DNA of 64,000 nucleotides from Actinomyces ruminis. Its GTDB lineage: Bacteria > Actinomycetota > Actinomycetes > Actinomycetales > Actinomycetaceae. Of this stretch, positions 308-15,212 are shown piece by piece. Where the stretch lies: the NCBI RefSeq assembly GCF_002154335.2, contig NZ_MTPX02000028.1:1-64000 (forward strand), in the 5' to 3' direction. A program made the translations under genes and the position numbers. The notes beneath the pieces are model-generated. The model saw nothing but the letters and a program-made list of their open reading frames with translations. It searched no databases and was not told where the DNA came from. Numbering within the stretch: position 1 is the stretch's first letter; every line of letters starts with the position of its first letter.

Positions 308-328
308 GTTGAGTGCATCAGACTCAAG
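308..328 (+). promoter_or_regulatory. HAIR operator (HspR binding site) of dnaK
   Basis: GTTGAGT, seven spacer bases, then ACTCAAG: a near-exact match to the HAIR consensus CTTGAGT-N7-ACTCAAG bound by HspR. An overlapping CTCAAG lies just upstream (302-307). A TTGACA hexamer follows at 345-350 and may be the -35 element. The encoded repressor HspR is the fourth gene of the operon, so autoregulation is expected. Confidence 0.9.
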
Positions 329-370: not shown

Positions 371-391
371 CCTGAGTGCATACCGCTCAAC
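371..391 (+). promoter_or_regulatory. Second, degenerate HAIR-like site
   Basis: CCTGAGT, seven bases, then GCTCAAC resembles a HAIR with one or two substitutions per arm. It lies between the putative promoter and the dnaK start, 31 bases before the ATG. Two HAIRs upstream of dnaK are known in other actinobacteria; function here is inferred. Confidence 0.5.
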
Positions 392-421
392 TTCAACACT
401 ACGAGACATCAAGGAGCTCCC

Positions 422-2280
422 ATGGCACGTGCTGTAGGCATCGACCTCGGAACCACCAACTCCGCCATCGCCGTACTCGAGGGTGGCGAGCCCACCATCA
501 TCCGAACGCCGAGGGCGGGCGCACCACGCCGTCCGTGGTCGCCTTCTCCAAGTCCGGCGAGGTACTGGTCGGCGAGGTCGCCAAGCGCCAGGCGGTCACC
601 AACGTCGAGCGCACCATCTCCTCCGTCAAGCGCCACATGGGCACCGATTGGACCGTCGACATCGACGGCAAGAAGTACACCGCCCAGGAGATCAGCGCCC
701 GCATCCTGGCCAAGCTGAAGGCCGACGCCGAGGCCTACCTGGGCGAGAGCGTCACCAACGCGGTCATCACCGTCCCCGCCTACTTCAACGACGCCGAGCG
801 TCAGGCCACCAAGGAGGCCGGCACCATCGCGGGCCTCACGGTGGACCGCATCGTCAACGAGCCCACCGCCGCGGCCCTCGCCTACGGCCTGGACAAGGGC
901 AAGGAGGACGAGCTCATCCTGGTCTTCGACCTGGGCGGCGGCACCTTCGACGTCTCCCTGCTGGAGGTTGGCAAGGACGAGGACGGCTTCTCCACCATCC
1001 AGGTGCGCGCCACCAACGGCGACAACCGCCTGGGCGGCGACGACTGGGACGCCCGCATCGTCAACTGGCTGGTCAAGCAGGTCAAGGACAAGTCGGGCGT
1101 GGACCTGTCCAAGGACAAGATCGCCATGCAGCGTCTGCGCGACGCCTCCGAGCAGGCCAAGAAGGAGCTCTCCTCCGCGATGAGCACCGACATCAACCTG
1201 CAGTACCTGTCTATGAGCGAGGCCGGCCCCATCCACCTCGATGAGCGCCTGACCCGTGCCCAGTTCGAGGAGATGACCGCGGACCTGCTCGAGCGCACCA
1301 AGGTCCCCTTCCACAACGTCATCAAGGACGCCGGTGTGTCCCTGTCCGAGATCGACCACGTCGTCCTGGTCGGCGGCTCCACCCGTATGCCCGCCGTCAC
1401 CGACGTCGTGCGCGAGTTGACTGGCGGCAAGGAGCCCAACAAGGGCGTCAACCCCGATGAGGTCGTCGCCATTGGCGCCTCCCTGCAGGCCGGCGTCATC
1501 CAGGGCGACCGCAAGGACGTGCTGCTCATCGACGTCACCCCACTCAGCCTCGGCATCGAGACCAAGGGCGGCGTGATGACCAGGCTGATCGAGCGCAACA
1601 CGGCCATCCCGACCCAGCGCTCCGAGGTCTTCTCCACCGCCGAGGACAACCAGCCGTCGGTGCTGATCCAGGTCTACCAGGGCGAGCGCGAGTTCGCCCG
1701 CGACAACAAGCCCCTGGGCACCTTCGAGCTGACCGGCATCGCCCCGGCCCCCCGCGGCATTCCGCAGATCGAGGTCTCCTTCGACATCGACGCCAACGGC
1801 ATCGTGCACGTGTCCGCCAAGGACCGCGGCACCGGCAAGGAGCAGTCGATGACCATCTCCGGCGGCTCCGCCCTGCCAAAGGAGGACATCGACCGCATGG
1901 TCAAGGAGGCCGAGGCCCACGCCGAGGAGGACAAGAAGCGTCGCGAGGAGGCCGAGACCCGCAACATGGCGGAGCAGCAGGCCTACTCCATCGAGAAGCT
2001 CCTGAAGGAGAACAAGGACAAGCTCCCGCAGGACGTCAACTCCGAGGTGTCCGCCGCCGTCGACGAGCTCAAGAAGGCCCTCGAGGGTACGGACATCGAG
2101 CCGGTCAAGGCCGCCCAGGAGAAGCTGAACGAGGTCGCCCAGAAGATCGGCCAGGCCCTGTACGCCTCCGAGCAGGCCGCCCAGGCCGCCGGCGGCTCCG
2201 ACTCCCCCCAGGCGCAGTCCTCCTCCGAGGACGACGACGTCGTGGACGCCGAGATCGTCGACGACGAGGACGCCAAGTGA
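422..2280 (+). CDS. dnaK: Molecular chaperone DnaK (Hsp70), one-base frameshift near 502
   Basis: Hsp70 ATPase chaperone that refolds proteins with DnaJ and GrpE. The ATG at 422 follows AAGGAG (411-416) and begins [20 protein letters not shown], the classic phosphate-binding loop. After about 27 residues the frame breaks: CATCC-GAACGCC lacks one C compared with the expected codons for [12 protein letters not shown]. From there the rest runs uninterrupted in another frame, with DLGGGTFD, the [10 protein letters not shown] motif, the [11 protein letters not shown] linker and an acidic C-terminus ([17 protein letters not shown]). Total about 619 residues, normal for the family. DnaK is very unlikely to be dead here, so a sequencing deletion is the simplest reading. 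Confidence 0.97.
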
Positions 2281-2966
2281 GCACCGACCCGGACAAGCGC
2301 CCGGAGGAGGGCTCTGAGACGCAGCCGGGGCACGGCGCCGACAACGGTCAGAACCGGCCCGCCGACGCCGCCGACGCCGGCGCGGTCGACCCGGCGCTGG
2401 CCGACGAGATCGAGTCCGCTTTCGACGGCGTCGACCTGGGCTCCGCGGCCCAGGCCGACGCCGCCCCGGCGGGGGCAGAGAGCGCGGAGACCACCGAGCT
2501 CGAGGCTCCCTCCGAGCTGGAGCAGGCCCGGGCCCAGGCCGCCCAGGCGGCCGACGACCTGGCCCGCGCCCGCGCGGACCTGTACAACCTGCAGCAGGAG
2601 TACCAGGGCTTCGTGCGCCGCTCGCGCGAGAGTGCGGCCGGACACCGCGAGGCGGGGCAGGCTAGCGTCGTCGAGACCCTGATCCCGGTCCTGGACGAGA
2701 TCGAGCTGGCCCGCCAGCACGGCGACCTGACCGGCACCTTCGCCACGATCGCCGGCAAGCTGGAGCAGATCCTGGCCGACAAGTTCGGCCTGGAGCGCTT
2801 CGGCGAGGTCGGGGAGCCCTTCGACCCCAAGCTGCACGAGGCCCTCATGGCCACCGAGTCCGCGGAGGTCACCGAGCCGAGCATCGCGCTGGTGCTCCAG
2901 CCCGGTTACAAGCTCGGCGAGCGCGTGGTCCGGGCGGCCCGCGTCCAGGTCGCCAACCCGGCCTGA
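2277..2966 (+). CDS. grpE: Nucleotide exchange factor GrpE
   Basis: GrpE dimer that releases ADP from DnaK; 229 residues. The GTG start at 2277 overlaps the dnaK TGA by three bases, implying translational coupling. The first ~85 residues are acidic and low-complexity, then a long helix ([20 protein letters not shown]...) leads into the conserved core with DNLQQEY-like, RQHGDLTG and the C-terminal wing ending in [16 protein letters not shown], the usual GrpE terminus. Start choice is supported only by the overlap because no strong ribosome site is visible. Confidence 0.95.
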
Positions 2967-3019
2967 GGTGGTATCCGCAACGAATAACAGGAGCAGCAGG
3001 AACACAGGAGGCGGTGAGC

Positions 3020-4045
3020 ATGGCCAGTCAGGACTGGATGACCAAGGACTTCTATGCGGTTCTCGGCGTTGCCAAGGACGCCGACTCAGCCGCCATCAAG
3101 AAGGCCTACCGCGCGCTCGCCAAGAAGTACCACCCCGACCGCAATCCCGGTGACGCCGCCGCGGCGGAGAAGTTCAAGGAGATCGGCGAGGCTTACGCCG
3201 TGCTGTCAGATCCCAAGGAGCGTCAGCAGTATGACGCCATCCGCTCCATGGCCGGTGGTGGCGCCCGCTTCACCTCCGGCTCCGGGGGTGCCGGTGCCGG
3301 CTTCGAGGACATCTTCTCCTCCATGTTCGGCGGCGGCGGACCCAATGTGCGCTACTCCACCTCCGGCGGTGCCTCCCAGGAGGACCTGGAGGACCTGCTG
3401 CGCATGTTCGGCGGCGGGGCGGGCGCCGGGGGCGGGCGGCGCGCACGTGGCCCCTTCGGCTTCGGCGGCTTCTCCTCCCAGCCGCAGCCGGTCAAGGGGC
3501 CGGATGTGCTCACCAATGCCACGCTCTCCCTGCGCGACGCCGTGGCCGGGACGCTGGCCGAACTGACCGCCGACGGGCGCACCATCACCGTGCGCATCCC
3601 CGCCGGCGTGCATGACGGACAGAAGATCCGCCTGCGCGGCAAGGGGCGCCCCGGCACGAACGGTGGTGAGAACGGGGACATGGTGGTGACCATCTCGGTG
3701 GCCAAACACCCGGTGTACTCGATCGACCCGGTCAACCCCGCCAACCTGCGCATGGATCTGCCGGTCACTCTCAAGGAGGCGGCCCTCGGTGCCACCGTCG
3801 AGGTGCCCCTCCTGGACGGCAAGACCAGCCGCGTGCGCATCAAGCCCGGAACCTCCTCCGGCACCGTGCTGCGCCTGCGCGGCAAGGGCGTCGCCACTGC
3901 TAAGAAGACCGGCGATCTGCTGGTGACCGTGCAGGTGGCCGTACCCAAGAAGCTGTCCAAGGATGCCAAGGCCGCCCTGGAGGCCTTCGATGCGGCGATG
4001 GAGTCCGATCCGCGTGCCAACCTTGCCCGGGAGGCGGCTCGGTGA
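3020..4045 (+). CDS. dnaJ: DnaJ-family co-chaperone without zinc finger
   Basis: J-domain co-chaperone that stimulates DnaK ATPase; 341 residues. AGGAGG at 3006-3011 is eight bases before ATG 3020, better placed than the in-frame GTG at 3014. The N-terminus carries DFYAVLGV and the HPD triad in KKYHPDRNPGD, then a Gly/Phe-rich linker (about residues 75-150) and the two C-terminal substrate-binding domains (RIPAGVHDGQKIRLRGKG). No CxxCxGxG repeats are present, so it is a type II (CbpA-like) protein, as is common for the DnaJ beside hspR in this group. Confidence 0.95.
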   Translation: MASQDWMTKDFYAVLGVAKDADSAAIKKAYRALAKKYHPDRNPGDAAAAEKFKEIGEAYAVLSDPKERQQYDAIRSMAGGGARFTSGSGGAGAGFEDIFSSMFGGGGPNVRYSTSGGASQEDLEDLLRMFGGGAGAGGGRRARGPFGFGGFSSQPQPVKGPDVLTNATLSLRDAVAGTLAELTADGRTITVRIPAGVHDGQKIRLRGKGRPGTNGGENGDMVVTISVAKHPVYSIDPVNPANLRMDLPVTLKEAALGATVEVPLLDGKTSRVRIKPGTSSGTVLRLRGKGVATAKKTGDLLVTVQVAVPKKLSKDAKAALEAFDAAMESDPRANLAREAAR

Positions 4046-4551
4046 GTGCGCGGCGGCTGACCGGACAGGGCGTCGACTTCCTCGCCGAGGACGCCGACGA
4101 GCGGGCGGTCTATGTCATCTCCGTGGCCGCGGAGCTGGCTGGCATGCATCCGCAGACTCTGCGGCAGTACGACCGGCTCGGGCTGGTCACACCCGCCCGC
4201 ACCTCCGGGCGGGGGCGGCGCTACTCGCACCGCGACGTGCAGCGGCTGCGGCGCGTGCAGGCCCTCAGCCAGGAGGGCATCAACCTGGAGGGCATCCGCC
4301 GCATCCTCGAGCTGGAGCGGCGCGTGGAGCGGTTGGAGGAGGAGAACCGTTCCCTGCGCGCCCGCCAGGCCGCCGTCGAGCGGGTCTTCGCCGCGGCCGC
4401 CGACGGCGAGGTGCAGGTGGTGCCGGTTACTCCCGGGCGGCGTGCCCGCCTGCATGCGGATACGCCCGGCGCTGCAAGCGAGACCGTTGGCGGTTCGACC
4501 CGGCCCAGTACCGCCATTGTGGTGCGCCGCACCTGGGCGGACCGACTGTGA
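4042..4551 (+). CDS. hspR: Heat-shock repressor HspR (MerR family)
   Basis: Transcriptional repressor of the dnaK operon and clpB through HAIR sites. 169 residues; GTG start overlaps the dnaJ stop by four bases (GTGA). The helix-turn-helix core reads VISVAAELAGMHPQTLRQYD, followed by RGRRYSHRDVQRL and a coiled helix ERRVERLEEENRSLRARQ, all typical of HspR. The C-terminal ~50 residues are low-complexity and variable in the family. HAIR sites at 308-328 and 12420-12440 are its expected targets. Confidence 0.95.
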   Translation: MSARRLTGQGVDFLAEDADERAVYVISVAAELAGMHPQTLRQYDRLGLVTPARTSGRGRRYSHRDVQRLRRVQALSQEGINLEGIRRILELERRVERLEEENRSLRARQAAVERVFAAAADGEVQVVPVTPGRRARLHADTPGAASETVGGSTRPSTAIVVRRTWADRL

Positions 4552-5771: not shown

Positions 5772-8101
5772 TTAGCCGGCCAGCCTCCGCCAGGCGAACT
5801 CGTACTCCAGGGCCTGCATGTAGGCCCGTTGTGCGTTGGTGGATGCGCGTCCGTGCCCGCCCTCGCTGTTCTCGAAGTAGGTCACGTCCTGGCCCAGTGC
5901 CAGCATGCGATAGGCCATGGTGCGGGCGTGGGCCGGATGCACTCGGTCATCGCGCGTGGAGGTGATCAGCAGCACCGGCGGGTAGGTGCGCCCCGGCTGC
6001 AGCAGATGGAAGGGGGAGAACTCGCGGATGAACTCCCACTGCTCCGGATCGTCCGGGTCGCCGTACTCCGCCTCCCAGGAGGCGCCCGCCAGCAGATGGT
6101 GGTAGCGGCGCATATCCAGCAGGGGCACCTCGCACACCACCGCGCCCACCAGTTGCGGGTAGCGGGTGAGCATGACGCCCACCAGCAGGCCGCCATTCGA
6201 GCCGCCCTGCACCGCCAACTGCCGCGGCGTGGTCACGCCGCGTTCCACCAGCGCCCGGGCCACGGCCGCGAAGTCCTCGTAGACCCGATGCCGGTTCCGC
6301 TTGAGCCCCGCCCGGTGCCAGGCCGGCCCATACTCGCCGCCACCGCGAATGTTCGCCACCACGTAGGTGCCGCCGCGCTCCAGCCAGGCGCGGCCGGTGA
6401 TCGGCAGATAGTTGATACCGAGCGAGACCTCGAAGCCGCCGTAGCCGTACAGGAGCGTCGGCGACGGCAGCGGACTGCCCGCGTCGTCGAGCCGGGGCCG
6501 GCCGATCTGGAAGTACGGCACCCGCGTGCCGTCGTCCGAGACGGCCACGTGCTGAGTAACGACCACTCCGCGCGCGTCGAAGCGCGCGGGCGCGGCCCGC
6601 AGCACCTCGACGCCGTCCAGCTCGCCGTCCGGGCCCAGTTCCCCGACCGCGAGCGTGGTGGGACGGGTGAAGGAGGAACTGGTCAGCCACAGCCGGTCGT
6701 CCTCCAGGGGATCGACGGCGCTCGCGGACACGTTCAGCAGGGCTCGCCCGGGCCGCAGCAGGGTCGGGTCTGCGGCTGCGGGACTCGGAGAACCGGCCGA
6801 GGCGGTGAGGCCCCCGGGCGCGGCTGCCGGTGCCGAGGGGGCCTGCGGGGCCACGGGCGCGGCGGCGTCGCCGAGGAGAGCTCCCAGCCGGGGGCGGTGC
6901 CGCGACCAGGGGCCGACGCCGTCCGGGTCGGCGGGGGTGAGCACCTCCAGCGTGGTGACGCAGTCGTCCAGGAGCGTGAGCACCAGGTGATGGGCGGTGA
7001 CGGTGAAGCCGCTCAGGGAGGTGGCCGGCGTCGGAGTGAATAGCACTGTCAGCCGATGCGCGCCGTCGAGGAAGGCGTCGATGGGGGCGGCCAGGAGCGA
7101 ACCGGCCGGGTAGATGCAGTCCGTGGTGACCTCCCAGTCCTCGCGCAACTCGATCAGCAACAGGTCCCAGGCGGGGGTGACCGTCGCTGACGCGGGCACG
7201 TCCACGTGCAGGGCACCCGGCGCCACCACCGTGTCGGCACCGGCCAGGTGGCGGTCGGCGTCGGCGGCCGAGAACGTCGGGGCGCCGTCGGGCAGCAGCC
7301 ACAGCTCCTCGGTGTAGAAGTCGGGGTGGGTCAGCAGCCAGGTGCGCCCCCAGCGGTCGCGGTAGGCCCAGGCGCCGTCGTCGTCGGCTGCGGCGGTGAG
7401 CAGCACTTCCGCTTCCTGCGGGCCTTGTCCGCGGCGCAGTCGGCGCACCTGTCGCGGGTAGCCGGCGGGGGATAGGGAACCGGTGCCGAAGTCGTCGGCC
7501 AGCAACACCGTCTCGCCGGCGTCGTCGGCCCAGGTCAGGAAACCCTTGGAGCGTCGCGGTGGAAGCCGGCGTCGCCGTCGGGGTCGGTGGGGACGAAGCG
7601 GCACGAGTCCAGGTCGAACTCGCGCGTGACGTCGGTGTCGGCACCGCCCGCGGACAGCGTGACCAGGGCACGGCGGCCGGCGTGCGGGCCGGTACGCAAC
7701 ACCGCGGCGCCATGCCACACCCAGGCGGTGTCCTCCTCCTCACCGAGCGCATCGAGGTCGAGCAGCACCTCCCAGTCGGTCTGTTCACTACCAGCGGGGG
7801 AGCCGGCCCGGTATGAGTCCCAGGTGGTGCGCCGCCACAGGCCGCGTGGGTGGCCGGCGTCGGTCCAGAAGTTGTACAGCGCGCCGACCGCCTGGCCGAC
7901 CCGGGGAATCCGATCCGGGGCGTCGAGAATCGTCTCGATGTCGGCGCGCAGCTCGGCGAACCCGGGGGCGTCGTCGAAGGCGGCGCGGGTGGCGGCATTA
8001 CGCTGCGCCACCCATGCGAGCGCCCGCTCCCCCTCGATCTCGTCAAGCCAGTCGGGGACGGGCTCGAGCGTGGACGGAGGGGAGGCGGGCGCGGTAGTCA
8101 C
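5772..8101 (-). CDS. Prolyl oligopeptidase family serine peptidase (S9), one frameshift near 7556
   Basis: Cytosolic S9 peptidase of about 776 residues that cleaves short peptides, usually after proline. GTG start at 8101. The N-terminal part (PDWLDEIEGERALAWV) matches the start of the beta-propeller gate; a one-base shift near 7556 (expected FHxRRSKGFLTWADD) moves into the main frame. The hydrolase domain shows the catalytic Ser in QGGSNGG, Asp in TSTRDDRVHP and His in NSEGGHGRAS, all in the expected order. There is no signal peptide. The stop lies one base from the convergent membrane-protein gene. Confidence 0.9.
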
Positions 8102-8149: not shown

Positions 8150-8332
8150 TCAGTCGTTGCCGATGGCCTTGTCGGCGGCGTCGCGAGCGGAGTCGACCTG
8201 GGAGTCGAACTTGCCGCCGGTGACCTTCTTGGCGGCCTCCGCGGCCTTGTCCAGGACCGTGTCGGAGACCTCCTCGACCTTGTCGGAGCTAACGACGCCC
8301 TCGGCCTTCTTCTTCAGGTCATCAAGTCCCAT
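8150..8332 (-). CDS. MT0933/Rv0909-like small helical protein
   Basis: 60 residues starting MGLDDLKKKAEGV; GAAAGGAAG lies five bases upstream, so this ATG is preferred over an in-frame one at 8377. The sequence is lysine-rich and helical with a GGKFDSQVDSARDAADKAIG tail, the pattern of the MT0933 (PF14013) family, which databases label as antitoxin. No partner toxin is visible beside it; the nearest genes are a peptidase and lipoproteins, so an antitoxin role is doubtful. Confidence 0.7.
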   Translation of the reverse strand: MGLDDLKKKAEGVVSSDKVEEVSDTVLDKAAEAAKKVTGGKFDSQVDSARDAADKAIGND

Positions 8333-8400
8333 AGCGCTTCCTTTCGTCGACCAACGGGAAGCCGGGCGGCGTCCCATTCGTGCAGTATGACACGTGCGGA

Positions 8401-9104
8401 TCAGAGGGAGGCGAGCATGGCGTCGGAGATTTCCTTGAGCTGTTCCTCGGAGTCGGTGACGATCACCGCCGCGTAGTAGGCGTCATCACCGTCCGACACG
8501 GCGAAGGCGGAGAGGTGGTACTGCGTGCCGTACTCGGTGGCGCTTAGGGTGATGATGGCGGCGTCGGCGCCGCTGCCGGAGGTGGTCTGCTCGTAGCCGG
8601 TGATATCGGCGTCTTCGTTTTCTGCCAGTGACCGCATCTGTTCCTCGGACGGCAGGGCGCCCTCCCCGTCGATCCGGCCCAGGACGAGGTACGGCGCGAC
8701 ATCGGCGTCTGCGGAGGTGTCAACGCTGGTAAGCGGCGTGTCCTCCTCCAGATCGTCGATGACCTCGTCCTCGGATTGATCGAGTGCCTGCGCGATGCGT
8801 CCAACCAGCTCGGTGTCGGAGGTGTTGGCGGAGGTCAGAGTATCCCAGTCGGAGGGGACGGCCACGGAGACGCTGTACTCCGGGACCTCCACCAGGGTGA
8901 AGCCCTCTGGAACGGCATTTTCATCGGCGTCGGCCGTGGTGTCAGCGTCGGCGTCCGCGGTTGCGGTGACCTGCTGGTCGGAGCCTGGTCGGCGGCGTCG
9001 TCGGAGCTGGAGGAGCAGGCAGACATCGAGATGGTCAGGGCAACGGCGGTCAGACCGGTGGCGGCCAGAGTCAGCGGGCGGTGCAGGCGGATGGAACGGG
9101 CCAT
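8401..9104 (-). CDS. Lipoprotein paralogue 1 of 5, one-base frameshift near 8986
   Basis: First (most downstream) of five tandem secreted lipoproteins. ATG 9104 follows GAAGGAG. The signal peptide ends MSACSSSSDDAADQ, Cys being the probable lipidated residue. After DDAADQ one C appears missing (GAGCCTG against GAGCCCTG in the paralogue at 11536-12270); restoring it gives GSDQQVTATADADADTTAD and joins the mature domain VPEYSVSVAVPSDWDTLTS. The mature domain ends ITDSEEQLKEISDAMLASL-like. The fold and ligand are unknown; LpqN/LpqT-type lipoproteins are a possible relative. Confidence 0.8.
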
Positions 9105-9196
9105 TTGGCAGGTCTCCTTCATGGTTGTGTTGGATTGGGATCGGTGCTGGTTTGGATGGCGGTCGGTAGGCGAGTGGTTACGGATCGTATTCGGCC

Positions 9197-9904
9197 TCAG
9201 GCCGAGCCAAGAACGCCGTCGATGATTTCCTGGTTAAGCTCAGCAGAGCTGGTGCCCACGTGGACGGCTACGGTTCGCGTGTCCGGTGCGGTGAACTCCA
9301 CGACGGTGGCATGGGCGACCTCGCCGGTGCTGTCTACGTTGACGCTATACGTCTGTATCACCGCTTCGGCTCCCGCCTCAGTGGTCGTAGTGGTGTAGTC
9401 ACCTAGCTCCGTGGAGATGTCGTCATTGTCGGGATACATGGAGCCGATGGTCTCCGCAAAGTCGTTCTCGGTTGACAGGCCGGTGCCGACGGGACGGACC
9501 GTGACGGTCATACTTCCGGTCAGCTCGGTGGTGTCGAGGATGTAGAGAGATGTGTTCTGCAGTGTGCTGATGATGGTGTCTGTCGACTGCCCCGTGGCGG
9601 TGGCGGTGGAACTCACCAGTTCTTCGTCGGCGGCGTCGGACTCGGTCAGTACCTGCCAATCGGCCGGAACAGGAATGACGAGCTCGGTCTCCGGCACCTC
9701 GATAGGCGTATAGGACATCGCGGTCGCGTCTTCGGTGGGTGTTGCACTTGCAGACGACGCGACCGCGGCGGTGGCGGATACGGATGCCGTGGCTGCGGTG
9801 TCGTCAGAGTCGGAGCCGGATGAGCAGGCGGACATGGAGGCGGTCAGGGCGACCGCGGTCAGACCGGTGGCGGCCAGGGTGGCCAGGCGGGTGGAACGGG
9901 TCAT
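9197..9904 (-). CDS. Lipoprotein paralogue 2 of 5
   Basis: 235 residues from ATG 9904 (AAGGAA upstream). Signal peptide ALTASMSAC gives an N-terminal lipid-modified Cys, followed by a Ser/Ala/Thr linker and a mature domain with the shared pattern IEVPETELVIPVPADWQVLT, an acidic DAADEELV segment and a C-terminal helix ELNQEIIDGVLGSA. The same order of elements recurs in all five neighbours, showing local gene duplication followed by strong divergence. Confidence 0.85.
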   Translation of the reverse strand: MTRSTRLATLAATGLTAVALTASMSACSSGSDSDDTAATASVSATAAVASSASATPTEDATAMSYTPIEVPETELVIPVPADWQVLTESDAADEELVSSTATATGQSTDTIISTLQNTSLYILDTTELTGSMTVTVRPVGTGLSTENDFAETIGSMYPDNDDISTELGDYTTTTTEAGAEAVIQTYSVNVDSTGEVAHATVVEFTAPDTRTVAVHVGTSSAELNQEIIDGVLGSA

Positions 9905-9976
9905 GGGTGATTCCTTCATGAGCAGGTATGGGTGGATGGCTCGGTTATCGAGCGTGTGGCGGGCTGTGCTCGACGG

Positions 9977-10648
9977 CTAGAACAGCGGGACCGCGCTATT
10001 GACCAGCTCCTGCGCTCGCTCGGCGGATGCGTCGGTGGAGACCGTCACGGTGACCGTGCCGTTCTCCCCCGGGGCGATCGTGTGGATAGCGGCAACGTAC
10101 TGCTGGGTCTCGCCCTGGTTCAGGGTGTAGCTGACTGTCGTGTAGGTGCCGGACGCTGACATCAGGGTGGTGCCGTCAAAGTCGGTGTACTGGATGCCGC
10201 TCTCTTCGAGTTCCTGTATGAAGTACTCCTTCATGCGCAACTCGGCGCTGTCGTAGTCGACCTGGCCGGTGATCTCCGTGGTTTCGCCGGAGTCCGCGGG
10301 GCTGGCGCCGATGACTTGGTAGGTCCCGAGCTTCTGCCGCACCGTGTCCGCATTCTGGCCCGTGGCCTGGACGTAGGCGTCCACGAGCTCGTCGTCGTCG
10401 GCGTCGTCGCTGGTGAGGGACGCCCAGTTGGACGGGATCATGACCACGTAACTGCCGTCGGGAAAGTCGACAAAGGTGTGGGCGCTGGTGGGGGTTGGAC
10501 TCGGCTCCGGAGTGGGCGAGAGCGTCTCCTGCGCGGTTGCCGTGCTGGCGTCCTCCGCATTGTCGGAGCCGGAGCAGGCGGCGAGCGATGCCGCCAGCAC
10601 GCCGGCGAAGGCGGCGGTCAGGCCGGTTCTACGGGACAGGTGGGTCAT
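9977..10648 (-). CDS. Lipoprotein paralogue 3 of 5
   Basis: 223 residues; AAGGA precedes ATG 10648. The N-terminus MTHLSRRTGLTAAFAGVLAA with LAAC lipobox has a twin-arginine-like RR, unlike paralogues 1, 2 and 5. After a Thr/Pro linker (LSPTPEPSPTPTS) comes the shared core VDFPDGSYVVMIPSNWASLT, DDADDDELVDAYVQATGQNAD and a final helix SAERAQELVNSAVPLF. It is closest to paralogue 4, which starts almost identically. Confidence 0.85.
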   Translation of the reverse strand: MTHLSRRTGLTAAFAGVLAASLAACSGSDNAEDASTATAQETLSPTPEPSPTPTSAHTFVDFPDGSYVVMIPSNWASLTSDDADDDELVDAYVQATGQNADTVRQKLGTYQVIGASPADSGETTEITGQVDYDSAELRMKEYFIQELEESGIQYTDFDGTTLMSASGTYTTVSYTLNQGETQQYVAAIHTIAPGENGTVTVTVSTDASAERAQELVNSAVPLF

Positions 10649-10716
10649 GGGAGTCCTTCGCGGTTGACTACGCGGCTATTGCCTGGAACGGCGGCTTGAG
10701 GTCGAGGCCACCGGGG

Positions 10717-11412
10717 TCAGATGGAGCTGAGGATCGCGTCGGCCAGTTCCTGGGCGCGCTCTGCGGAGTCGGTGCTGGTGATGGTGAAAACGATGATCCC
10801 GGTGGCCTTGGGGTTGAGTACGTTGATCATGGTCGTGTACTGCGCCTGGACCAGATCCAGGGAGTAGGACATGAGCCTGGCCTCGGCGCCGCTGCCCGTA
10901 GTCGCGGTGCTGATGCTGATGTCATCGGGCTTGAGACCGTATTCCTCCATGTCGGCGGAGATCTCCTCCTCCGAGCGCAACTCGGTCGCGTGGCTGTCGG
11001 TCTGGACGTCAAGCTCTTCGGTTATGCCGGAGTCCGCGCCGCTGGCGGCAATCACGGTGTACGCATCGAGCTTCAGCCGCACGGTGTCTGCATCCAGGCC
11101 CGTGGTCTGAATGAAGGCATTGACGCGCTCGTCGTCGTCGGCGTCGTCGCTGGTGAGTACGGTCCAGTCGGAGGGAACCGCGAAGGCGACGTTGGTGTCC
11201 GGGATCTCCACGGCGGTGTACCCGTCGGGGATGGTCACGGCTGAGGCTGAGCCGTCGTCCGCGTCCGCCGTAGCTGTGGCCTCGCCGGTCTCCTGGCCGG
11301 TGGCGGTGTCGGCGCCCTCCGCATTGTCGGAGCCGGAGCAGGCGGCAAGCGAGGTTGCCAGTGCGGCGGCGAATGCCGTGGTCAGAGCGGTTCTGCGGGA
11401 TAGCCGGGTCAT
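10717..11412 (-). CDS. Lipoprotein paralogue 4 of 5
   Basis: 231 residues; the leader MTRLSRRTALTTAFAAALAT...LAAC and the mature start SGSDNAEGADTATGQE are near-copies of paralogue 3, as is the untranslated region (GGACTCCCATGACC), showing a recent duplication. The core VEIPDTNVAFAVPSDWTVLTS, DDADDDERVNAFIQTTGLDAD and C-terminal SAERAQELADAILSSI keep the family pattern. Probably anchored to the outer face of the membrane. Confidence 0.85.
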   Translation of the reverse strand: MTRLSRRTALTTAFAAALATSLAACSGSDNAEGADTATGQETGEATATADADDGSASAVTIPDGYTAVEIPDTNVAFAVPSDWTVLTSDDADDDERVNAFIQTTGLDADTVRLKLDAYTVIAASGADSGITEELDVQTDSHATELRSEEEISADMEEYGLKPDDISISTATTGSGAEARLMSYSLDLVQAQYTTMINVLNPKATGIIVFTITSTDSAERAQELADAILSSI

Positions 11413-11535
11413 GGGAGTCCTTCGCGGTTGGCTACGCGGGTGTTGCCTTGATCAGCGGCTGGAAGCCGTTGGGGTAGGAACGCCGGTTGCGCTCCTACCC
11501 CAACGGTAACGAATTAGGTGTCAGTATGTTGCGAG

Positions 11536-12270
11536 TCAGATGGAGCCGAGGATCACGTCGGCCAGTTCCTGGGTCCGCTCGGCATCGTCGGTGCTGATGG
11601 CGATGAGCGCCAAGTCGTCACCGCCGTTGGCGTAGACGACCACGTAGGTGCCCTCGGTGGTCGGCCCGCCATCGATCGGCAGAGTGTAAGTCTCCACGAC
11701 GGCGTCCTGGCCACTGGCGGTGGTCGTCTCGGTGTAGGTACCGGGCTGGAAGACCATGCCCGCGTCCTCGTTGTTCTGATTCTCCAGCAGGGCGACCATG
11801 TCGTTCTCGGAGGGCATGCTGCTGAAGCCCTCGGCGATCTCTACGTTCAAGTTCTCGGCGTAGTCGCTGGTGCCGCTGGTGTCCATGGTGTACAGGGCGA
11901 GGGAGTCGAGCATGGCGATGGTTTCGTCCTCGGTGCGGCCGAGGGTCGTGGCCAGGGCGGAGACGAACTCGGTGTTGGCGACGGTGTCGCTGGTGAGGGT
12001 AGTCCAATCGGAGGGGACGGCGATGGACAGCTCGGCGCCGGGCACCTCGGTGAGGGTGTAACCGTCGGGCACGGTCGGCTCGGCGGCTGCTTCGGTCTCG
12101 TCGGTGCTGTCGGAGCCGGCGTCCGTATCGGCCGCGGCGCTGACCTGCTGGTCGGAGCCCTGATCCGCGGCGTCGTCGGAGCTGGAGGAGCAGGCGGACA
12201 TGGACGCCGTCAGGGCGACGGCGGTCAGGCCGGTAGCCGCGATAGTGGTTAGGTGGGACAGACGGGACAT
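11536..12270 (-). CDS. Lipoprotein paralogue 5 of 5 (operon-proximal)
   Basis: 244 residues from ATG 12270. Leader ATGLTAVALTASMSAC and mature start SSSSDDAADQGSDQQVSAA match paralogue 1 closely, so the five genes fall into two leader types (1, 2, 5 and 3, 4). Core: VPGAELSIAVPSDWTTLT, TVANTEFVSALATTLGRTED, and C-terminal DDAERTQELADVILGSI. It is the first gene transcribed if the five form one unit. Its 5' end diverges from clpB. Confidence 0.85.
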   Translation of the reverse strand: MSRLSHLTTIAATGLTAVALTASMSACSSSSDDAADQGSDQQVSAAADTDAGSDSTDETEAAAEPTVPDGYTLTEVPGAELSIAVPSDWTTLTSDTVANTEFVSALATTLGRTEDETIAMLDSLALYTMDTSGTSDYAENLNVEIAEGFSSMPSENDMVALLENQNNEDAGMVFQPGTYTETTTASGQDAVVETYTLPIDGGPTTEGTYVVVYANGGDDLALIAISTDDAERTQELADVILGSI

Positions 12271-12419: not shown

Positions 12420-12440
12420 GTTGAGTGGAATAGACTCAAG
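12420..12440 (+). promoter_or_regulatory. HAIR operator (HspR site) of clpB
   Basis: GTTGAGT-GGAATAG-ACTCAAG, the same half-sites as the dnaK HAIR, 69 bases before the clpB ATG. TTGAGA at 12387-12392 with TCATAA at 12413-12418 may be the promoter, although spacing is long (20). Puts clpB in the HspR regulon, as known in Streptomyces and Bifidobacterium. Confidence 0.9.
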
Positions 12441-12509
12441 GTTGCGTCGGTTGAGGCGTGCAGAACTCCGGACCGTCTGCGTCCGGGCATCCACGTCAAG
12501 GAGGTCCCT

Positions 12510-15212
<2,703 letters not shown>

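Follow-up and report, generated by a model that had tools for sequence, protein, structure and literature searches.

Within a 64,000-nucleotide stretch of the Actinomyces ruminis genome (positions 1 to 64,000 of NZ_MTPX02000028.1, hereafter the window; contig C4 of a 3.41 Mb draft that comprises 99 contigs and is 82.6% complete), five homologous lipoprotein genes lie in tandem on the minus strand, from position 12270 down to 8401, and are referred to here in reading order as A to E. Each encodes a basic hydrophobic leader with a lipobox, a low-complexity linker and a body of 174–182 residues. The lipoprotein signal (a lipobox cysteine in MSAC or LAAC), called by eye and with a simple pattern, is present in A–D and in the leader frame of E, and the leaders fall into two classes, TGLTAVALTxSMSAC in A, D and E and RRTxLTxAF...LAAC in B and C. 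An initial annotation of the window had described five consecutive minus-strand lipoprotein paralogues with these two leader classes (its genes 1, 2 and 5 versus 3 and 4), and the homology holds at the level of the bodies: a search of the A. ruminis genome with gene A returned eight matches, comprising the five genes (E as two pieces) and two weak N-terminal matches, with E-values of 2e-148 to 4e-7 for the main pieces of the five, and the bodies of B–E are 21–36% identical to that of A. Three relatives of gene A in named species are found, the closest of them in A. succiniciruminis AM4 (87% identity), followed by A. glycerinitolerans (58%) and A. ruminicola (50%), which marks the source as a rumen-type Actinomyces.

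The array genes share a VPxDW motif, an acidic stretch and a C-terminal SAERxQEL helix, features which the annotation had also listed and which the alignment supports. Forty-eight profile matches were obtained and 46 members aligned, the two excluded being the leader fragment of E and L056:7781-8695; the latter has a proline-rich N-terminus and a transmembrane-like segment, with no lipobox. Just two columns, the P and W of VPxDW, are invariant across the 46 members, so that the family has no conserved catalytic set, and the two residues suggest a structural role rather than catalysis. In some paralogue pairs, A and D among them, similarity is much higher in the leader than in the body, as would be seen if unrelated bodies had merely acquired similar leaders. 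That explanation is extremely improbable, given that a profile of the bodies alone matches all five genes (which were included in building it) and that A and C have the same predicted topology.

Sequence family and predicted fold

Searches by sequence placed the lipoproteins in no established family. When the 46 members were searched without their leaders, Pfam gave 20 families at E ≤ 0.1 (best E 0.004), none of the PsbP/Mog1-like superfamily, and NCBIfam gave no convincing family, with a best E of 0.00098 (soxG, one member). The weak names differed between members (TLP1_add_C, DHquinase_II, CHRD, soxG) and were taken as noise. There was no staphylococcal lipoprotein family among the Pfam scan results of the members, and PHROGs and PADLOC provided no convincing match for the lipoproteins. 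Two memberships were rejected because the full-length matches came from the leader and linker: LpqN (NF052551), which was matched by nine of the 46 full-length proteins (E ≤ 0.1, best 1.8e-8) and by none once leader and linker were removed, and TIGR03931 (type VII secretion system-associated, Rv3446c-type), with 28 full-length matches at E ≤ 0.1 (best 4.7e-5) and none among the 46 leader-free sequences. An all-member profile searched against the PDB reached LpqN at E 0.012, only via the leader, linker and VPxDW, and a body-only profile did not recover it. PF10738 had no match in the A. ruminis genome, in a search that was silent in every control genome too.

AlphaFold models of A and C, for which the input consisted of 17 sequences from the window and three named relatives, reached a predicted local distance difference test score (pLDDT) of 88.4 and 88.2, respectively, and show the same order of elements in bodies that are 21% identical. 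Cyanobacterial PsbP (2xb3) matches A with Z 14.7 (143 aligned residues, root-mean-square deviation 2.5; Foldseek E 1.1e-5) and C with Z 13.8 (138 aligned, deviation 2.7; Foldseek E 1.2e-4). Further matches to A and C, respectively, include Jonesia 3lyd (Z 11.6 and 12.1), Mog1 (11.0 and 11.0) and LpqN (6e5d; 10.6 and 10.5), as well as Tsi3 (Z 10.0–11.2), and identity in the structural alignments with PsbP/Mog1-fold proteins is 6–16%. According to these models, A and C share a predicted PsbP/Mog1/LpqN-like alpha-beta fold over the whole domain. The initial annotation had pointed to LpqN-like structures for comparison, and the fold match agrees with that suggestion; it had also held that differing predicted structures would reduce the resemblance to the leaders, and the two members folded do not differ in this way.

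The same predicted fold is found in a range of PsbP/Mog1-like proteins (2xb3, plant PsbP, Mog1, DcrB, EagR/SciW), among which DcrB has been described as anchored in the membrane (PMC7716261). The array differs from these proteins in being tandem and fast-changing, and no photosystem or type VI genes were seen around it. LpqN of Mycobacterium is likewise an actinobacterial lipoprotein with this fold and a low-complexity linker, but the array bodies have no match to the LpqN sequence family. Actinomyces are not known to have mycolates. LpqN reportedly interacts with MmpL3, MmpL11 and a trehalose monomycolate mimic (PMC7458404).

The fold is consistent with more than one role. The LpqN match would suit housekeeping envelope lipoproteins of LpqN-, DcrB- or CyanoP-like type, acting in assembly or lipid handling and tied to clpB, whose variation reflects relaxed constraint and ordinary recombination; we consider this possible but doubtful, for reasons that emerge from the comparisons between species below. 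Tsi3, in turn, is an immunity protein, and its match would fit a polyimmunity-like or decoy array in which acidic lipoproteins neutralise cationic bacteriocins or the contact toxins of neighbours, which we find unlikely on the evidence of the gene neighbourhood and distribution.

Core replacement, substitution rates and copy number

A comparison of gene A from A. succiniciruminis with that from A. glycerinitolerans shows identical DNA over codons 31–80: the two genes are approximately 57% identical over codons 82–224 and 86–96% identical at the 3' end, with segment limits taken from a segment scan whose contrast was reached by none of 200 codon shuffles. Within codons 82–224, synonymous divergence (dS) is 0.67 and nonsynonymous divergence (dN) 0.63; outside them both are 0.04, and dS in clpB is 0.03. 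As dS and dN rise together, an already divergent core was imported rather than built base by base, and the sequence comparison thus shows that the gene A core in this pair was replaced by recombination. In the predicted model, the replaced part covers approximately the second strand through the whole of the last one.

The two genomes are collinear over 29.4–67.0 kb of the A. succiniciruminis contig, with 95.7% identity where aligned. Divergent or unaligned sequence extends beyond one 250-base window at three spots: the lipoprotein cluster itself (55.0–56.5 kb), 39.0–39.5 kb and 65.3–66.5 kb. The spot at 39.0–39.5 kb corresponds to L067:18190-19623, a secreted open reading frame (ORF) that is serpin-like by inspection. 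In a pair of close species from another clade (G022 and G023), clpB with gene 1 is 92.9% identical and the sequence beyond the array 91.7%, whereas the region of gene 2 differs. Replacement of a core within intact, near-identical flanks, and the differing gene 2 region, go beyond what drift in housekeeping lipoproteins would be expected to produce.

Substitution rates were compared pairwise by NG86, a method that ignores codon and base bias. Over 46 lipoprotein pairs dN/dS ranges from 0.23 to 1.07, with 0.23–0.76 in groups B–F and 0.30–1.07 in group A (0.30 for A versus its A. succiniciruminis orthologue), and ClpB gives 0.05–0.07. Values near 1 are seen in gene A; there, the whole core has been replaced in at least one pair, with dS raised too. 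Among 24 species pairs with clpB protein identity ≥95.5% over the first 800 codons, the clpB-proximal lipoprotein is 37–90% identical. By the dN/dS values, change at the level of point mutations is fast, but an excess over neutrality, or positive selection on point mutations, is not shown. The initial annotation had read the strong divergence as a sign of selection and had proposed dN/dS among the five genes and their homologues as a check; its reading is partly supported, in that the comparisons show diversification by duplication and core replacement.

To describe the distribution of the family, we surveyed fetched loci and genome collections. In 17 of 20 fetched congeners, not counting the window, clpB has a divergently oriented member upstream of it, at 205–1588 nucleotides (nt) from the clpB start (624–1588 nt in six of the 17); the stretch fetched for the other three, L051–L053, is without clpB. 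Four loci come from other genera, of which two belonging to one genus (L074 and L077) keep the clpB arrangement and two (L075 and L076) do not. The fetched genus loci and the window carry one to five copies each, L077 carries one, and L074:6873-15889 has nine tandem members next to clpB, apparently a separate expansion. This copy-number comparison, made between species, upholds the repeated duplication that the annotation had proposed and adds loss to it. At E ≤ 0.001 the body-only profile matches 34 of 200 genomes of the family, five of them from other genera; among those listed, 29 of 37 same-genus genomes have a body match and eight have none. An order-wide draw at E ≤ 1e-5 gave matches in 14 of 297 genomes, four of them from the genus, and a first profile that contained the leader matched 42 of 49 genus genomes, a number of these matches being leader-only. 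In another family of the order, a weak match at G325:C4:111731-112237 falls within an open frame of 2047 residues and represents either one domain of a very large protein or an incorrect reading frame. The recurrent position by clpB in the genus and in one other genus (two genomes), together with the body matches in most same-genus genomes listed, would be expected of housekeeping proteins, but the same-genus genomes that have no body match and the nine-copy array would not.

Gene order is kept as content varies, with A-B-C-D-E in the window, A-D-E in A. succiniciruminis, A-B-C-E in A. glycerinitolerans and A-B-F-C-E in A. ruminicola. In a tree of the 46 bodies, C, D and E each form a well-supported clade that crosses species, B falling with C in one; F, a sixth type, has clade support of 91/95, and A is defined by position, its bodies lying in several clades.

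The clpB locus and its surroundings

The features of the locus are collected in Table 1. The inverted repeats of the HspR-associated inverted repeat (HAIR) type were called with the HAIR consensus, and the MerR-type gene after dnaJ is taken as hspR, judged from its place.

Table 1. Genes and regulatory elements at the lipoprotein array of A. ruminis (window coordinates).
Feature	Position	Strand	Remarks
Lipoprotein gene A	11536..12270	-	244 aa; clpB-proximal; lipobox MSAC; PsbP/Mog1-like domain from about residue 63 (predicted)
Lipoprotein gene B	10717..11412	-	231 aa; lipobox LAAC; orthologues in A. glycerinitolerans, A. ruminicola and G025
Lipoprotein gene C	9977..10648	-	223 aa; lipobox LAAC; predicted fold as in A
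Lipoprotein gene D	9197..9904	-	235 aa; lipobox MSAC; orthologue in A. succiniciruminis only, among fetched loci
Lipoprotein gene E	8401..9104	-	leader from ATG at 9104; body 8404-8988 in another frame
clpB	12510..15212	+	divergent from gene A
HAIR-like inverted repeat (HspR operator type)	12420..12440	+	69 nt between its end and the clpB ATG
Small gene with PF14013 (MT0933-like antitoxin) domain	8150..8377	-	downstream of E
Prolyl oligopeptidase (S9) gene	5772..8101	-	two frames, change near 7554
Second HAIR-like repeat	308..328	+	upstream of dnaK
dnaK-grpE-dnaJ and MerR-type gene	376..4551	+	dnaK frame change near 504

The HAIR-like repeat at clpB (12420-12470 with the promoter) has GGAAT-N18-GTT, the SigH/SigR promoter type, embedded in it and directed toward clpB, and this arrangement agrees with published SigH/SigR promoters (PMC3489674). 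A HAIR-type core is present in 19 of 20 clpB upstream regions from Actinomyces and one other genus (L047 is without an exact core), and the spacing from GGAAT to GTT is 18 nt in 18 regions and 17 nt in one. The clpB promoter carries a predicted HspR-type HAIR operator, an assignment that applies to clpB and not to the lipoproteins. The element lies 61–165 nt from clpB and 98–1406 nt from the nearest lipoprotein start, and no conserved promoter was found on its lipoprotein side in the 45 nt compared per locus. Because its spacing is better kept to clpB and the lipoprotein-side sequence is not conserved, co-regulation of the lipoproteins by HspR is not claimed, and the missing promoter conservation also speaks against housekeeping lipoproteins tied to clpB. 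Scans for sigma-70-like promoters and terminators found 1 site versus 0.6 in shuffles and 2 versus 1.6, respectively.

Gene E does not form a single open frame, which the annotation had overlooked: its leader and body are in different reading frames, with the change near 8988. Three frame changes (dnaK, the S9 peptidase gene and E) occur within about 9 kb of the window; those in dnaK, near 504, and in the peptidase gene, near 7554, are single-base deletions relative to A. succiniciruminis. E orthologues at L041, L042, L043, L045 and L046 are intact. Because dnaK and the peptidase gene show the same kind of change, and a broken dnaK is not expected, a draft error in E is more likely than a pseudogene. 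Phase variation is not favored, as there is no long homopolymer at the frame change and the same type of change is seen in the two other genes. Indel errors in the draft, as indicated by these three genes, call for caution with other frame-dependent readings of the window.

Possible roles of the array

The bodies of A–E carry a net charge of -12.6 to -20.7 per 100 residues, compared to -10.5 to +4.2 for 23 other chosen window products, which are mostly not secreted; the mean is -15.4 in 27 rumen-clade members and -8.3 in the 19 others. We favor, with slightly more confidence than doubt, a clpB-linked variable array of secreted lipoproteins whose domain is a binding module with a changing extracellular partner. 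Judging from the lipobox, each protein would be exported and would receive its lipid at the cysteine that follows the leader, and the low-complexity linker would then tether a single, very acidic PsbP/Mog1-like domain with no conserved catalytic residues to the membrane. The array diversifies in two ways, by tandem duplication and loss of members and by recombination that swaps the folded core and leaves the leader, linker, first strand and C-terminal helix in place, the conserved ends presumably serving as homology anchors. The domain most probably acts as a binding module at the surface or in the wall space, and the candidates for its changing partner are peptides or proteins from other bacteria, phages and host factors. 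Surface exposure, a binding role and selection driven by such a partner, whether host, phage or ligand as the initial annotation suggested, are inferred.

Among known systems, the array would by analogy work most like the staphylococcal tandem lipoproteins: Csa1/Lpl of S. aureus also expand, contract and recombine (PMC7360770). Unlike Csa1/Lpl, the array shows a core swap flanked by conserved ends and has a clpB-linked position. We found no published account of this locus among the papers listed by a literature search that covered few subscription journals.

Polyimmunity loci of polymorphic toxin systems provide a further parallel, being described as arrays of distantly related tandem paralogues (PMC3482391), but the array differs in its recurrent clpB-adjacent position and in that no toxin gene was seen nearby. 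A neutralising role would suit the strongly negative bodies, and cationic bacteriocins are one lead to a possible partner. NisI is a precedent for bacteriocin-neutralising action. Actifensin is a product of A. ruminicola, and at least two homologues are reported from A. succiniciruminis AM4 (PMC6989792). Against an immunity locus, no toxin domain was found by Pfam among 10 neighbors in the window (eight named, two without a match) or among 10 neighbors at three loci away from clpB (three without a match). Lipoproteins are rare among known immunity proteins, with one case described (PMC3482391), neither PHROGs nor PADLOC pointed to such a function, and a member that occurs in most genus genomes listed, usually by clpB, is unlike what is expected of immunity genes. 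A more elaborate version, a heat-shock-linked array in which the cores are swapped like cassettes within constant 5' and 3' ends and the products, as decoys or immunity proteins, counter cationic bacteriocins or phage proteins that change, is similarly improbable.

Several observations weigh against the binding-module reading that we favor. The structures are predictions for two members, and a PsbP fold by itself gives no function. The A core of A. glycerinitolerans groups with a gene of G034 at moderate support (93/86), which is below the support mark of the tool. The segment contrast was unreached by shuffles in only nine of 20 orthologue pairs (four of A, two of C, one of B, two of E), three of which (one B, two E) concern the leader or linker; in C, codons 157–192 have dS 0.60 inside versus 0.29 outside over 27 synonymous sites, which is suggestive only. 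Outside gene A dN/dS is below 1, as housekeeping proteins would also show, and the values of A, D and E versus A. succiniciruminis (0.29–0.41) fall inside the range spanned by 54 comparisons of other ORFs (median 0.23), a control that includes some wrong-frame ORFs with ratios above 0.8, for which reason its 90th percentile and maximum were set aside. The locus has no partner, phage or toxin gene linked to it, and the sample consists of one genome per species, such that the variation described is between species only.

Taken together, these data describe a lipoprotein family that has no name in the searched copies of Pfam and NCBIfam although its fold is known and its chromosomal position recurs, and provide one measured case in which a core was replaced by recombination between nearly identical flanks. 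Proteins with different cores and the same leader form natural test pairs for asking what PsbP-fold lipoproteins bind. The array genes are candidates for arms-race proteins directed against something outside the cell, and the array offers a concrete starting point for finding out what Actinomyces, of the rumen and elsewhere, encounter at the cell surface.

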